NCBI RefSeq assembly: GCF_016757965.1
Contig: NZ_JAEKIW010000015.1
Location: 1 to 60,787 of the forward strand
Direction of reading: 5' to 3'
Origin: Archaeoglobus neptunius
Lineage (GTDB): Archaea; Halobacteriota; Archaeoglobi; Archaeoglobales; Archaeoglobaceae
Length of the DNA: 60,787 nucleotides
The position numbers were made by a program, and so were the translations under genes. Position 1 is the stretch's first letter. Each line of letters starts with the position of its first letter. Under the pieces are notes generated by a model. That model saw only the letters and a list, made by a program, of their open reading frames with translations, was not told the DNA's origin and did not search any database. Below are positions 1 through 7,513 of this stretch, in pieces.

Positions 1-107
1 ACATGAGTCTGAATTTTGATGAACTTGAGACTCCCTATCAGGCTTTTCTCAGGAAGTTGCCTGCTGAAAGGGTGTTTGAGTACGGAAGGTGGTTGTTTGA
101 AGAGTGA
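1..107 (+). mobile_element. C-terminal end of a DDE (integrase-core) transposase, cut by the window edge
   Basis: The open frame enters from the left edge and stops at 105-107. The visible residues (about 35) begin with an H-M-S-L-N run and continue with TPYQAF and a charged tail. This fits the end of rve/IS481-like transposases, where a YN..RPH.SL motif is followed by TP.+aF. Only the tail is visible, so the family is inferred from the short motif and the IS family cannot be named. The decayed gene pieces just downstream support an insertion at this site. I could not recognise a terminal inverted repeat. Confidence 0.55.
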
Positions 108-117
108 AATTATTTCG

Positions 118-202
118 GGATATCACACTCTCCGGCAGATCAACTTTTTCGAGGGGTTTAAACACTCCCGTTTTCGTACACGACCTCTATGATTTTTTCC
201 AT
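118..202 (-). pseudogene. Remnant of a DUF104 (AF2212-like) antitoxin, frameshifted and truncated
   Basis: On the minus strand an ATG at 200-202 opens with MEKIIEVVYENG. After one extra base near 163-166 the neighbouring frame continues as VFKPLEKVDLPE. Joined, this matches the typical start of the DUF104 antitoxin family, whose members pair with PIN-type toxins and begin with a pattern like ieavYEnGvfkPLekvdLpEG. The reading frame as it stands stops at 158-160. The similarity ends near 118, just before the transposase end, so the gene was probably broken by the IS insertion. No toxin gene is visible. The match is from memory of the family pattern, not from a search. Confidence 0.5.
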
Positions 203-3611: not shown

Positions 3612-3701
3612 ATGAAGATCGTGCTTGAAGTTAAGGACCTGATAATTCTTGCGTTGATCGCTTTAATACTGGTTTCCATTCAGCTAACTCTGTTTGGGTA
3701 A
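3612..3701 (+). CDS. Possible 29-residue single-helix membrane peptide
   Basis: An ATG at 3612 opens a 29-codon frame reading MKIVLEVKDL then a strongly hydrophobic stretch (about residues 9-27) and a TAA at 3699-3701. A TATA-like TTTAAATA lies about 25 bases before the ATG, which would suit a leaderless mRNA. It overlaps the 3' end of the convergent polymerase gene by 71 bases. It could be a real small membrane protein or chance. I do not recognise a family. Confidence 0.3.
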   Translation: MKIVLEVKDLIILALIALILVSIQLTLFG

Positions 3702-5613
3702 AATTTACTGTGAAGTTTATTTCGTGCCATGCTCTGTTGAGTAGCTTGAGGTAATACCGGTAATCGAAATCTGAGAAATCCTTAATTCTTACAATGCGTT
3801 TCTGGGAATCAACAACAACATACTCGATCAGCATTCCTGGTGATATCTGTCTCCCTGCCCTTCTGTATTCCCTCAGCACTCTGGACTCGATGCAGTCCCT
3901 CCTGTAATCGACCCTCCCGACAGCCTTTTTTATGACCAATTCAGCAGGATCGGCAAATCTTAGGTTATCAGCGAATTTGCGATAGGTGTCTCTCAATCGA
4001 GGAGCCAGTTTTTTGATATCCTCCAGATTCTCCGCTCTGGAGAGAATATCGAAGCACCGCAGTTGCATTTTTCTGATGTATTCCGGAATATCCCTTCTCC
4101 TCATGGCAACTCCGCGAATTCTCATCTCCCCATTTGAGAGTCTGCCGTAATATCTGTTGTAAGCCCCTTCGCCATCCTTCATCGGAAGAAAGGTGATCCA
4201 GTTGTACATTTCCAGCTCTGTGAGCAGGCCAGTCTTCTTTTCCACCCGCTCTTTAAGCTTCCATGGGTCACCTTCACCGGAAATCCACAAACAGTCTATT
4301 ATACCATGAAGAACGCTAAATCCCATCTCTTCTGCAATCCCCTTGCTCTGAAGAAGTATCTCCCTGCCAATCCTGTTTATCTCTTCGTGGACTTCTATTC
4401 TGCCAAACTTGGCATTTCTGTATCCCGTGTAACCAAAGCAGGTAACTAGCATCCATTTCAGAATGGAGTCCAGATCCATGCACCTCATTCTCTTCGTTTT
4501 TATCCGCATGCTGAGGAGGGGACTCAGAACCTCAGCAAGGAACCCCCTCTTTCCATTTCCGTGAATGGTTTCAGGGGACAGGTTGTATTTTACAATAATT
4601 GACGGATACATTGATGTGAAGTCGATCTGCCATACATTCTCGTAAACACCGGGTTGGGGCTGAAAAATCATCCCGCCCCTGTCAGCAATTCTAAGCTCTG
4701 AAAGTGTTTTCACCCTCTCTGCGTCACTTTTTCTGAACGGGACAGCTATATCCCTTCTTAAAGCCTCAAAAATTTCGTAAAGTGAAATCAGGGATCCGGG
4801 ACTGAAGCGGGATGCAAGATTGGGGGATATTGCAGCCAGACGAGATGCAAGAAGTACACCACGAATTCCGCCTTCTTTGAAATTGAAGCTTCCAGTATCG
4901 ATTAGTATTCTCCCCTCGGGAATGAGTGCCTCTCTTCGCAATCTGGCCTTTCCGTAGCTCCAGTAGGACTTCTGGGGAAGCTTTCTGAACTTTCCCGTTC
5001 TACTTATGGTGTTCTCAACACCGCATTCTCTGGCTATGGAATCTATGCGTGGCATCCAGAAGTCAGCATCTGTAAGAAGGATTATGTCGGGGTTTGAGGA
5101 CTCAATGCACGAGAGCATGTCTTTAACTGCATCTTTCTCACCCCTCGCCATTCTTTCGCCATCAACACGTATTTCGTTAATTCTGTTGTCACCTCTGATT
5201 GAAATCTCCATTATCGTGAAGGGCAAGTCAAATTCGATCTCAAACCTTTTTCCACAGTCTTCGAGTATGTGGGAGCATGGAAAAACGTTCTTTTTAGCCA
5301 TGACCTTATGTTCGAGTCTTACATCAACGTTAAACAGCTTTGAGTCTTTTGTCTGCCTCTCCACCTTTTCAGCAACCTTCCTCCCGGCATAAATTTTGTA
5401 GCCATTAACCGTACCGTATATGGTTTTTATCTCGCAATCTTCAACCCTGTATCTGCTTTCAAGATTCTCAAGCATCTCGTAGTGCAGTGAAGCATCTGGC
5501 AGATATAAAAGAAAGTAGTTTTCAGCCTTTACTGTGTGTTTTCTGACCCTGCTGCCCCTCTTCACCCAGAAATTAACACCTTTTTTCCATGAACTGCAGT
5601 CCAGAACCCACAT
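3631..5613 (-). CDS. B-family DNA polymerase of the degraded PolB2 type
   Basis: 660 residues with the layout of a B-family polymerase. Motif A (DFTSMYPSII, 331-340) is intact. Motif B (ILKWMLVTCFGYTGY, 384-398) keeps the Lys but has Val where Asn is usual. In motif C the expected YGDTDS is HGIIDC (436-441), so the first catalytic Asp is lost. The 3'-5' exonuclease motifs are also worn: the D-I-E of motif I reads I-M-E (134-136), and motif II lacks its usual N and D pattern. This fits archaeal PolB2, a paralogue known for missing catalytic residues. In Sulfolobales its relative Dpo2 acts in DNA-damage tolerance. It is the last gene of a three-gene run and overlaps the preceding gene by 41 bases. 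A. fulgidus, as I recall, has the same neighbourhood (AF0693-AF0695). Confidence 0.85.
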   Translation of the reverse strand: MWVLDCSSWKKGVNFWVKRGSRVRKHTVKAENYFLLYLPDASLHYEMLENLESRYRVEDCEIKTIYGTVNGYKIYAGRKVAEKVERQTKDSKLFNVDVRLEHKVMAKKNVFPCSHILEDCGKRFEIEFDLPFTIMEISIRGDNRINEIRVDGERMARGEKDAVKDMLSCIESSNPDIILLTDADFWMPRIDSIARECGVENTISRTGKFRKLPQKSYWSYGKARLRREALIPEGRILIDTGSFNFKEGGIRGVLLASRLAAISPNLASRFSPGSLISLYEIFEALRRDIAVPFRKSDAERVKTLSELRIADRGGMIFQPQPGVYENVWQIDFTSMYPSIIVKYNLSPETIHGNGKRGFLAEVLSPLLSMRIKTKRMRCMDLDSILKWMLVTCFGYTGYRNAKFGRIEVHEEINRIGREILLQSKGIAEEMGFSVLHGIIDCLWISGEGDPWKLKERVEKKTGLLTELEMYNWITFLPMKDGEGAYNRYYGRLSNGEMRIRGVAMRRRDIPEYIRKMQLRCFDILSRAENLEDIKKLAPRLRDTYRKFADNLRFADPAELVIKKAVGRVDYRRDCIESRVLREYRRAGRQISPGMLIEYVVVDSQKRIVRIKDFSDFDYRYYLKLLNRAWHEINFTVNFTQTELAEWKPVLKRSTQELSGP

Positions 5614-5833
5614 TGGTATCGAGCTCCTTAAGCAGCTCGATGAGTACTGAAAACACTGCAGCCTCCAGTGGATCGCTGAAGGCGTAGAAGGCCTCGCTGC
5701 TGTGTTTTTTGATCATTTCAGCTAACTTTTCAGCGTAAATTCTCTCCTCCTTTTTCAGAGCTTTTGATGTCCTCAGCCACCTTTCAGCCATCTTTTTAAC
5801 CTCCATCCTCACACTTGAAACGCTCCTACCCAT
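5573..5833 (-). CDS. Small helical protein in the PolB2 operon, function unknown
   Basis: 86 residues, rich in Lys and Glu and predicted mostly helical (for example MEVKKMAERW and KKEERIYAEKLAEMIKK). There are no cysteine pairs, signal peptide or membrane segment. It abuts the upstream gene (the next base after its start, 5834, is the last base of that gene's stop) and overlaps the polymerase start by 41 bases, so translation is probably coupled. I do not recognise the family. Its position suggests a partner or regulator of the polymerase-like protein. Confidence 0.65.
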   Translation of the reverse strand: MGRSVSSVRMEVKKMAERWLRTSKALKKEERIYAEKLAEMIKKHSSEAFYAFSDPLEAAVFSVLIELLKELDTNVGSGLQFMEKRC

Positions 5834-6406
5834 TCAGAACACCTCCAGAGTCAGTTGCCCCGATATTTTAGGATAGAACCGCTGAGTCAATCCGTTGACT
5901 CCCACATCGGCAATATAGTATCCTCCCGCATCCTCCTCAACGTAGATGTATCTATCGGCAAGATTTGTTATGAAGTCGAAGATTCGATCTCTTTCGGTTG
6001 TGAGATATATCAGAAGCCTGTCTCTGCCGATCTGTCTCAGAAGCATCACAAAATCTTCAAGGGTGTAGAAGCTGCAATCTTCAAAAAGCAGTGGATCGTG
6101 TTCGATGAACACCGTGTCCTCGTAAGAATTGAGCAGTATTTCCATGACCTGGTGTATTGTAAAGCCCCTTCTGATGTGCAGATTTCCGTCTATTCTGTCG
6201 ATAATGGATGAGTGGTTTCCACAGATGTACATGGACGGAAATCTACTGTCGGCGCTTCTGATGCTTTTTGCGCAAACTTCAGCCGGTGCTGATAATGCCG
6301 TAAATCCACCATCTATCTGGACTGACAGTACCTCTATCATGTAAGGTAATGCGTCCCGGAAAATAAGAAGTTCAACCCCCGGATGCAAGTGAAAAAGATT
6401 ATACAT
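5834..6406 (-). CDS. DUF835-like RecA-fold protein without a P-loop
   Basis: 190 residues. The second half has the strand-helix rhythm of KaiC/RecA folds: GFTIHQVMEILLNS, then a Walker-B-like strand EDTVFIEHDPLLF (96-108), then DFVMLLRQIGRDRLLIYLTT and NLADRYIYVEE. The N-terminal half, where GxxxxGKT is expected, reads DGGFTALSAPAEV, so there is no nucleotide-binding loop. This resembles DUF835 proteins, which are P-loop-less RecA relatives common in Archaeoglobales and Thermococcales. The start could instead be the ATG at 6338-6340. With the first start, its ATG is only about 15 bases from the likely start of the divergent cdc6. It is the first gene of the PolB2 run. Confidence 0.7.
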   Translation of the reverse strand: MYNLFHLHPGVELLIFRDALPYMIEVLSVQIDGGFTALSAPAEVCAKSIRSADSRFPSMYICGNHSSIIDRIDGNLHIRRGFTIHQVMEILLNSYEDTVFIEHDPLLFEDCSFYTLEDFVMLLRQIGRDRLLIYLTTERDRIFDFITNLADRYIYVEEDAGGYYIADVGVNGLTQRFYPKISGQLTLEVF

Positions 6407-6421
6407 ATTGAGGTATGTTTT

Positions 6422-7513
6422 ATGTCAATGCTCTCATGGGACGAGAGTCTGTTCAGAAATATTGAAGTTTTCGACCCTGATTACATACCAGATGAAGTTC
6501 TGTTTAGAGATGGGCAGATAAGACAGCTCGTCTCATGCATAAAACCCGTTTTCCACAGCTCATCTCCCATAAATGCCTTCTGCATTGGCCCACCATCCAC
6601 TGGAAAAACCTCGACAATAAGGTATGTTTTGAGAGAGGCCGAGGAGGAGATTGAGGGGTTCAAGTACTCATACATCCGTTCTCCAAGGTTCAAGGAGCCT
6701 TACAAGATTTTTGCAAAAATATTTCAGGATGTTATTGGACATCAAGCTCCTGCGACCGGAATAAGCAAGACTGCGATGATGGATAGGGTCTGGAGAAATC
6801 TTGAAGACCCTCTTGTGGTGGTTCTGGATGACGTGAACTTTCTCAGCAAAAATTATGCTGACGAGGTTCTTTACGAGATACTCAAGGCTCCTGAAGAGTA
6901 CGGGGTGAAGGTGGGGGTTATTGCTGCTGCAACCGACATACGGTTTCCGATGCTTCTCGATCCGTTTGTAGGCGCCATTTTTCACTATGTGGAAATTCAC
7001 TATCCCACCTACACTTACTCTGAGGTGAGGGAGATACTTAAAAAGAGGGTCGAATACGGTTTTATACCGGACGTTTTTGAAGAGGAGGCTTTTGAGAGGG
7101 TGGTGGAGATAGCTCACAATGCAGGGGACGTCAGATACGGGATATATCTCTTAAAAGCTGCCGGTATGAACGCAGAAAGCAGGGGGAGCAGAAAGGTGCA
7201 GGTTGAGGATGTGGAAAAGGCAAATGCAGGGGAGTCTCTATCCTTCATTGCGAAGATAGTTTCCGCATTAAACAGTGAGGAGAGGGCGGTTTTGAGGATT
7301 ATATACTCTCAAGAGGAGATTTCGACAGGGGACCTGTACGATCTGATCCACAGTGAGGTCAGAATGGGATACAGGAAGTACTACAACGTTCTTGAGAAAC
7401 TGGAGAGACTCAGATTAATTGACATTGCTTTTGGTGACAAAGGAAGGGGAAAAACAAGGTACATCTACCGGAAATTTGATCCTGAGGTGGTGGAGAAGGC
7501 TCTGGAGTTTTAG
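6422..7513 (+). CDS. cdc6: Orc1/Cdc6-family AAA+ ATPase
   Basis: The protein has 363 residues from the ATG at 6422. It begins near SLFRNIEVFDPDYIPDE, the usual Orc1/Cdc6 entry. Walker A is GPPSTGKT (about 56-63) and Walker B is VVVLDDV (about 132-138). A sensor strand (IAAATDIR) and a C-terminal winged helix for origin DNA binding follow. An upstream in-frame ATG at 6383 exists, but it would overlap the divergent gene, and GAGGT at 6410-6414 favours 6422. Members mark replication origins or, in Sulfolobus Orc1-2, control the DNA-damage response. The divergent position to the PolB2 genes suggests the second, regulatory type of paralogue. Confidence 0.9.
   Translation: MSMLSWDESLFRNIEVFDPDYIPDEVLFRDGQIRQLVSCIKPVFHSSSPINAFCIGPPSTGKTSTIRYVLREAEEEIEGFKYSYIRSPRFKEPYKIFAKIFQDVIGHQAPATGISKTAMMDRVWRNLEDPLVVVLDDVNFLSKNYADEVLYEILKAPEEYGVKVGVIAAATDIRFPMLLDPFVGAIFHYVEIHYPTYTYSEVREILKKRVEYGFIPDVFEEEAFERVVEIAHNAGDVRYGIYLLKAAGMNAESRGSRKVQVEDVEKANAGESLSFIAKIVSALNSEERAVLRIIYSQEEISTGDLYDLIHSEVRMGYRKYYNVLEKLERLRLIDIAFGDKGRGKTRYIYRKFDPEVVEKALEF

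Follow-up and report, generated by a model that had tools for sequence, protein, structure and literature searches.

Introduction

The protein part of the system described here and its arORC2 neighbourhood are already known. The PolB2 operon and a neighbouring arORC2 gene were published in 2014 and again in 2025, and surveys have shown orc/cdc6 genes to be overrepresented in the vicinity of polB2 (PMC4104785, PMC11791011). The exonuclease motifs are lost throughout the PolB2 family, an N-terminal MGRT arm has been published for the small partner protein PPB2, and PIP motifs have been published for iRadA (PMC11791011). Early papers predicted that PolB2 is inactivated (PMC4104785), yet PolB2/Dpo2 from Sulfolobus is reported to be an active polymerase that is induced by damage, bypasses lesions and is solely responsible for targeted mutagenesis (PMC11791011, PMC7390963).

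Two archaeal damage-response elements provide a frame for the regulatory side. In Sulfolobus, ANTTTC is the footprint of Orc1-2 at its damage-response element (DDRE), and the Walker B motif of this protein is reported to contain Glu (E154 in S. islandicus) (PMC9738581). In Halobacterium, a UV motif, TTTCACTTTCA, was reported for radA1, top6B, vng17 and vng280, with the regulator left open, and the same source cites Sta1 as an activator of a Sulfolobus radA paralogue (PMC2556686).

The question at stake is whether an SOS-like regulon exists in archaea beyond the Sulfolobales and, if so, which protein controls it. An SOS-like response was reportedly not seen in an earlier Halobacterium study. 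In the bacterial SOS system, a LexA box is combined with umuDC or imuA-imuB-dnaE2 cassettes. What is new in the present analysis of a locus from Archaeoglobus neptunius is the control region.

Results

A PolB2 mutasome operon and a divergent cdc6 gene

The features discussed below are located in the window, i.e., the whole stretch of 60,787 nucleotides that was analysed, and are collected in Table 1.

Table 1. Positions of genes, motifs and putative control elements in the window
Feature	Position	Strand	Basis
PolB2, B-family DNA polymerase, mutasome type, 660 aa, unbroken frame	3631..5613	-	NF004416
Motif C of PolB2, H-G-I-I-D, DxD with first Asp substituted	4294..4308	-	13-sequence alignment
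PPB2, arCOG07300 family, 86-aa helical partner, MGRS N-terminal arm with Arg3 and Arg9	5573..5833	-	homologue listing
iRadA, inactivated RadA paralogue, start moved from 6406 to 6340	5834..6340	-	alignment, upstream stop in G052, fold
QLTLEVF, putative C-terminal PCNA-binding (PIP-like) motif of iRadA	5837..5857	-	10-sequence alignment
Putative divergent promoter/operator region, iRadA operon versus cdc6, 81 bp	6341..6421	.	
TATA-like element of the iRadA-PPB2-PolB2 operon, 20-27 nt from start codon	6360..6367	-	
Conserved 39-bp block TTCAACCCCCGGATGCAAGTGAAAAAGATTATACATATT	6371..6409	.	relatives alignment
Box core, CACTTGCATCCGGGGG on the iRadA sense strand	6376..6391	-	
TATA-like element of cdc6, ATTATACATA, 15-24 nt before ATG	6398..6407	+	
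Cdc6/Orc1 paralogue, arORC2 type, 363 aa, P-loop GPPSTGKT, Walker B LDDVN	6422..7513	+	NF001624

The polymerase matched the NCBIfam profile NF004416 with 877.9 bits (cut-off 516) and is 46-63% identical to 12 other PolB2 proteins from Archaeoglobales. The initial annotation had described an intact motif A, a motif C without its first Asp and a motif B without Asn, and an alignment of all 13 sequences upholds each of these points. Motif A (DFTSMYPSI) is kept throughout, the first-Asp position of motif C (HGIIDC in the window) is occupied by Ile, Val or Met in 13 of 13 sequences while the second Asp is invariant in all of them, and motif B reads KWMLVTCFGYTG and lacks the canonical Asn. A conserved D(K/R) motif is present as well: the polymerase of the window has D311-R, and Arg or Lys follows the Asp in all 13 sequences. 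The worn motifs are a trait of the whole family.

The helical protein of 86 residues was identified as PPB2 and shares its MGRS start with all nine Archaeoglobales PPB2 sequences listed. The Met at 6340 is the homologous start of iRadA, since in G052 a stop codon immediately precedes it. The gap to the divergent gene therefore amounts to 81 bp and not to the approximately 15 bases originally assumed. A sequence profile of iRadA searched against the PDB did not retrieve RadA and gave only weak matches to siroheme synthase; the fold was therefore used instead. The structural model (pLDDT 86) matched RAD51, RecA and KaiC structures in the PDB with E values of about 1e-6, and iRadA thus has a RecA/Rad51/KaiC fold from which the P-loop GxxxxGKT is absent. 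Of the earlier description as a DUF835-like protein without GxxxxGKT, the missing P-loop stands, whereas DUF835 itself found no Pfam match at E values up to 1 and no support from NCBIfam. Close to the C-terminus, Q-x-T-L-E is invariant in ten iRadA sequences. The genes for iRadA, PPB2 and PolB2 share one orientation, are adjacent or overlap in the window, and occur in this order in most complete loci. Together they make up the PolB2 mutasome operon known from the literature.

The divergent Orc1/Cdc6 gene adjoining the operon was confirmed by a match to NF001624 (454 bits). Its product contains the AAA+ Walker A motif and matches the Orc1 structures 2qby and 2v1u over almost the full length; the winged-helix domain (Cdc6_C) was matched with only 12.6 bits, below the cut-off. 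In the methanogen genomes searched, the best Cdc6 paralogue scored 185-240 bits and the initiator type 77-104 bits; judged by its sequence, the window Cdc6 belongs to the arORC2 subfamily and is nearer to the second euryarchaeal Cdc6 than to the initiator type. The catalytic Glu of Walker B is absent from the window protein, which carries Asp at this position as do all 31 of 31 sequences of its type, and Glu is present in five initiators. In several Archaeoglobales, relatives of this Cdc6 are encoded directly behind integrase-like genes.

The four-gene order is kept in five Archaeoglobales genomes at non-syntenic places, and the neighbourhood is in this sense conserved. A system special to the Archaeoglobales is not supported, since operon and arORC2 neighbour have been published before (PMC4104785, PMC11791011). 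Four genes in the same order at unrelated positions resemble a transferable cassette. We did not find a clean "empty site" in A. fulgidus, where the flanks of the window map far apart (1345, 2029 and 1952 kb), so that insertion is indistinguishable from general rearrangement.

A conserved block between two TATA-like elements

The 39-bp block lies between two TATA boxes and is nearly invariant in Archaeoglobus: 37-38 of its 39 positions are identical to the genomes G001, G003 and G006, where the cassette DNA is otherwise about 70% identical. On the iRadA side, the TATA-like element is AT-rich and occupies the same position in four relatives. The cdc6 gene is divergent over the same block in five of five cassette genomes and is also divergent in G011. 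No description of this operator block was found in the PolB2 mutasome papers examined. Its position suggests that a single box could control both transcription units.

An 18-base core covering the box occurs in five further copies with 0-1 mismatches in G003 and G006, upstream of operons of small genes. One of these operons encodes a member of the photoproduct-lyase family (PF20903, 65 bits), and others encode a DUF488 protein. The boxes are single copies at a fixed place by the TATA elements and not clustered repeats, and some are found beside provirus-like genes. A search for an exact-box regulon in the window genome returned the site itself and one weak partial match inside a reading frame (G000:C2:137398, E 0.0033). 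The ANTTTC motif had been looked for in the divergent region and not seen. One instance, ATTTTC, is in fact present on the minus strand (6359-6364), overlapping a TATA-like stretch, but it is not conserved, and the element that is conserved is CACTTGCATCCGGGGG.

A related box in methanogens

Methanogen PolB2 operons carry a related box, YACTTTCRCNCCNC, upstream. CACTTTC is present in 38 of the 52 loci, against an expectation of 1.3; the flanking columns hold about 0.1 bit each, and the distance to a TTAT sequence is constant. The window core is probably a CACTTKC relative of this YACTTTCRC box, with CACTTGC equated with CACTTTC by eye alignment and TATA spacings of 15-17 versus 19. In 16 methanogen genomes, 94 sites were found versus 12 for the reversed control pattern. 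The box precedes radA in eight of the ten genomes in which sites were read, and also genes for RPA, xseA, nreA, a DNA-repair-type radical SAM protein and an mre11-like protein. Its ACTTTC core, situated upstream of TATA in the PolB2 operons, agrees with the Halobacterium UV motif TTTCACTTTCA (PMC2556686) and with the Orc1-2 element ANTTTC (PMC9738581). All 15 box-bearing methanogen genomes tested encode both a window-type and an initiator-type Cdc6; with the exception of one genome, cdc6 is not behind the box. Methanogen-type boxes are not overrepresented in the window genome (one site versus two for the control), and the strict box was not found before radA in the genus of the window.

Discussion

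The island is probably a PolB2 lesion-bypass mutasome operon joined to an Orc/Cdc6-type regulator and packaged as a four-gene cassette. The initial idea of one damage module made up of polymerase, partners and Orc regulator receives indirect support from the conserved order, the common block and the methanogen repair-gene boxes, which across many methanogens hint at an SOS-like damage switch. By analogy, we infer binding of Cdc6 to the box and induction upon damage. As has been described for Sulfolobus Orc1-2, DNA damage would bring the arORC2-type Cdc6, in the ATP state, to the box, where it would switch on both cdc6 and the mutasome operon before being reset via ATP hydrolysis. PolB2 would then extend beyond lesions within a heteropentameric PolB2-iRadA-PPB2(3) complex that the C-terminal QLTLEVF of iRadA may hold on PCNA.

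We count several observations against this model: cdc6 is unboxed in methanogens bar one genome, the window genome shows no excess of methanogen boxes and contains its own box in only a single clear copy, radA of the genus has no strict box, Walker B contains Asp versus Glu154 in Sulfolobus Orc1-2, and the equation of CACTTGC with CACTTTC rests on eye alignment with differing TATA spacing.

The initial annotation had suggested that the degraded proteins act through structure and not through polymerase chemistry, as the missing Asp of DxD, the missing Asn of motif B and the early predictions of inactivation (PMC4104785) would allow. We consider this very unlikely, since Sulfolobus Dpo2, which is reported to be active and solely responsible for targeted mutagenesis, carries the identical substitution (IID) (PMC7390963, PMC11791011), and since motif A and the second Asp of motif C are conserved. 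It is also rather unlikely that another regulator reads the box and that Cdc6 is merely a neighbour or itself a target. The unboxed methanogen cdc6 genes fit such an arrangement, as do the Halobacterium motif without an assigned regulator and Sta1, cited in that source as activator of a Sulfolobus radA paralogue (PMC2556686); on the other hand, every one of the five cassette genomes has cdc6 diverging from the operon on the far side of the block, the gene is divergent in G011 as well, and published surveys show orc/cdc6 enrichment around polB2 (PMC4104785, PMC11791011).

Cdc6 and box may alternatively form the replication module of an integrated element, with an origin-recognition-like box and the polymerase operon as cargo. 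Origin boxes carry a G-string. A G-string is also present in the box, Cdc6 relatives follow integrase-like genes, some boxes lie beside provirus-like genes, and the cassette is non-syntenic. We regard this reading as improbable nonetheless, because the box is single-copy at a fixed TATA-side place without clustered repeats, because the methanogen box precedes radA, RPA and xseA genes, and because no integrase was seen inside the cassette.

Returning to the proposed Orc/Cdc6-controlled mutasome cassette, a broader proposal seems possible, if doubtful: a single ancient damage operator of archaea, recognised by Orc/Cdc6 paralogues, might underlie the present boxes as well as the UV motif of Halobacterium and the Orc1-2 element of Sulfolobus. 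This would be a counterpart of SOS with Orc replacing LexA, in which Archaeoglobus would have joined regulator, box and mutagenic polymerase in a transferable 4-kb cassette and from which provirus-like elements would have borrowed the operator. A box is common to radA, the PolB2 mutasome, RPA, xseA, nreA and provirus-like genes, and in Archaeoglobus an Orc-type gene faces it. This provides a candidate regulator that can be named and a short DNA probe, and A. fulgidus, in which the same cassette is present, is a cultivable organism.

The window shares with the Dpo2-type mutasome of Sulfolobus all three proteins, the order iRadA-PPB2-PolB2, the MGR(S/T) arm of PPB2, the PIP motif of iRadA, the substituted DxD and an orc1/cdc6 neighbour. 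It differs in that cdc6 is divergent over one common conserved block and in that the four genes stay together while the flanks are not conserved. As for Sulfolobus Orc1-2, an Orc-type paralogue is located at a damage-gene promoter, autoregulation is presumed, and the methanogen form of the box has ACTTTC upstream of TATA; unlike there, the window box reads CACTTGCATCCGGGGG and not ANTTTC, with CACTTGC in place of the ACTTTC core of the Halobacterium UV motif and the DDRE, and Walker B is LDDVN. The resemblance to Orc1-2 would be one of function only. With the Halobacterium UV motif, radA is a common target, radA of Methanospirillum having already been noted in that work, whereas PolB2 operons and RPA, xseA, nreA, mre11-like and radical SAM genes are added here. 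This extension, the downstream CNCCNC half and the provirus-like genes were not found in the papers examined. The bacterial SOS system likewise has a damage box common to a recombinase and a mutagenic polymerase operon as well as a RecA-like accessory protein; unlike in bacteria, there is no LexA here, the proposed regulator is an Orc/AAA+ protein, and the polymerase belongs to family B.

Identity of the operon and its divergent neighbour

The island proposed in the initial annotation, three minus-strand genes and a divergent cdc6, is present with all frames intact (see table), and the trio almost certainly represents the PolB2 mutasome operon described in 2014 by Makarova and colleagues (PMC4104785), from which a PolB2-iRadA-PPB2(3) complex was modelled in 2025 (PMC11791011). 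In NCBIfam profile searches, PolB2 scored 878 bits against NF004416 and Cdc6 454 bits against NF001624, and the published operon order and Orc/Cdc6 neighbour are both found in the window. PPB2 carries the published MGR(S/T) arm, PolB2 the published D(K/R) motif (alignment of 13 Archaeoglobales), and the iRadA C-terminus, QLTLEVF, is predicted to be the published clamp-binding mark. iRadA indeed lacks a P-loop, and its predicted model (pLDDT 86) matches RAD51, RecA and KaiC in the PDB (E about 1e-6); the earlier assignment as a DUF835-like protein was rejected, as Pfam gave no match. The iRadA start is the Met at position 6340, where the protein alignment begins and shortly 5' of which genome G052 has a stop codon. 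The divergent gap is therefore 81 bp and not 15 bases as originally given.

Coordinates of the cassette and associated features
Feature	Position	Strand
Repeat at left end of window	1-130	
PolB2	3631-5613	-
PPB2	5573-5833	-
iRadA	5834-6340	-
Divergent region	6341-6421	
39-bp block	6371-6409	
Cdc6 (arORC2 type)	6422-7513	+
PF20903 protein, locus L114 (Archaeoglobus genome G006, contig C2)	1406-2380 of L114	

The alignment of the 13 Archaeoglobales PolB2 proteins shows a conserved motif A, Ile, Val or Met in place of the first motif C Asp in every sequence (13/13), and KW(M/L)L(V/I)TCFGYTG as motif B. The substitutions first read as degradation are thus real, but since they occur throughout this set they are a family trait and not decay of the window genome. 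A purely structural role of the proteins, as had also been suggested, is unlikely because the Sulfolobus PolB2, which shares the IID motif, is an active enzyme that causes targeted mutagenesis after damage (PMC7390963, PMC11791011).

Spread and possible mobility of the cassette

PolB2 is patchily distributed, entire or as a fragment, in about a quarter of 57 Archaeoglobales genomes; G011 carries three copies. Of the two in G013, the second (L046) is broken into two frames beside a cdc6 that is also split, and resembles a decaying cassette. The four-gene order is kept in the window genome, G001, G003, G006 and G052. The flanks differ among these five, the cdc6-side flank being common only to G001 and G003, and those of the window map to 1345, 2029 and 1952 kb of G001, whose own cassette lies at 626 kb. 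Such non-matching flanks would fit a transferable cassette, general rearrangement being the alternative. The repeat at the left end of the window matches many G006 contig ends and copies of about 950 bp in G001, and is probably an insertion sequence at a contig edge.

Window-type Cdc6 paralogues immediately follow a gene that was read by eye as integrase-like and carrying a zinc-ribbon (L119, L120, L122, L123, L124, L126 and L044), so mobile elements carry this Cdc6 type too. A second radA lies within a few kb of window-type cdc6 on G002:C38, G018:C4, G018:C137 and G018:C2, as if recombinase and Cdc6 were fellow travellers.

A conserved block and its relatives

Between two TATA-like stretches of the divergent region lies a 39-bp block that differs at one or two positions between the window and three other Archaeoglobus genomes, whereas the cassette DNA is only about 70% identical. 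Its 18-base core (0-1 mismatch) has one extra site in G003 and four in G006, and a sequence profile of the box recovers the same ten sites (E 1e-16 to 6e-11). Of the five extra sites, four are followed by a gene of the small-protein family small2, which at three of them comes after a second small gene; the same pair heads a PolB2 operon opposite cdc6 in G011. At L114, a box with one mismatch is followed by two small genes and, farther downstream, by a radical SAM protein of the spore-photoproduct-lyase family (PF20903, 65 bits) with an 83% relative in G022, and a DUF488 protein lies farther along at two extra sites (one of them scanned). Elsewhere in Archaeoglobales, small2 adjoins genes resembling integrated-virus genes, with ACTTTCA upstream in 7 of 13 such loci (0.4 expected). 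At L192-L206 it neighbours genes for P-loop ATPases and small membrane proteins that resemble those of published Archaeoglobi pleolipovirus-like proviruses; DUF4258-like or RelE-like proteins often come next.

A public-genome scan yielded 80 PolB2 loci, mainly from methanogens, among which the order iRadA-PPB2-PolB2 is the rule and cdc6 is nearby only in Archaeoglobales. CACTTTC occurs in 38 of 52 upstream regions, where first-order Markov shuffles predict 1.3. Alignment gives the element YACTTTCRCNCCNC, with TTAT at a constant spacing behind it and about 0.1 bit in the flanking columns; its first letters served for site selection, the later C positions and TTAT being independent of it.

Across 16 methanogen-type genomes the box pattern gave 94 sites versus 12 for the reversed pattern; some of the sites fall within genes and probably arose by chance. 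Among the sites read, the box precedes radA (8/10 genomes), the PolB2 operon, nreA (two genomes), xseA, an mre11-like gene and an RNase H-like nuclease gene, as well as RPA and a DNA-repair-type radical SAM gene in each of the four Methanotrichaceae covered (G080, G085, G086, G091). Archaeoglobales radA genes have a YACTTTCR box in several genera; in this comparison none was found at radA of the window's genus. Other genes behind boxes include additional PPB2-like genes without the MGR arm in methanogens (L364, L393; by eye) and a family of 139-151 aa proteins in four methanogen genomes (L358, L381, L389, L394), of which the one member scanned had no Pfam match. In G013, TnpB-family proteins directly follow a CACTTTCAC.CCAC box (L335, L355, L356; one by profile, two by eye).

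Cdc6 as candidate regulator

Alongside the initiator type, window-type Cdc6 is present in 15 of 15 methanogen-type genomes tested. Its Walker B motif has Asp in 31/31 sequences versus Glu in five initiators (consensus LDD.N, the N missing in one sequence, versus LDE.D). The methanogen gene lies behind a box in one genome only, so Cdc6 is no more than the best candidate regulator, although we lean towards its reading the box. Cdc6 would bind the 39-bp block in a state set by ATP, DNA damage would trigger the switch, and the mutasome would then extend past lesions on PCNA. Identities, gene order and the shared conserved block are established, as is the reappearance of related boxes in front of repair genes; the scheme as a whole, a mutasome operon with a Cdc6-read block and a damage switch, is probable, and in part we infer it.

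Comparison with known damage motifs

In Halobacterium, four UV-induced genes, radA1 and top6B among them, were reported in 2008 to have TTTCACTTTCA upstream, with a near-match preceding a UV-induced transposase gene and a similar motif at radA of other haloarchaea and Methanospirillum, no regulator being given (PMC2556686). In Sulfolobus, the promoter of the Orc1-2 regulator gene contains ANTTTC, to which Orc1-2 itself binds (PMC9738581). The window variant, CACTTGCATCCGGGGG on the iRadA strand, is one letter off in CACTTKC, plus a G-string, and in our reading may be equated with the methanogen box, whose ACTTTC agrees with both the Halobacterium UV motif and the Sulfolobus Orc1-2 motif.
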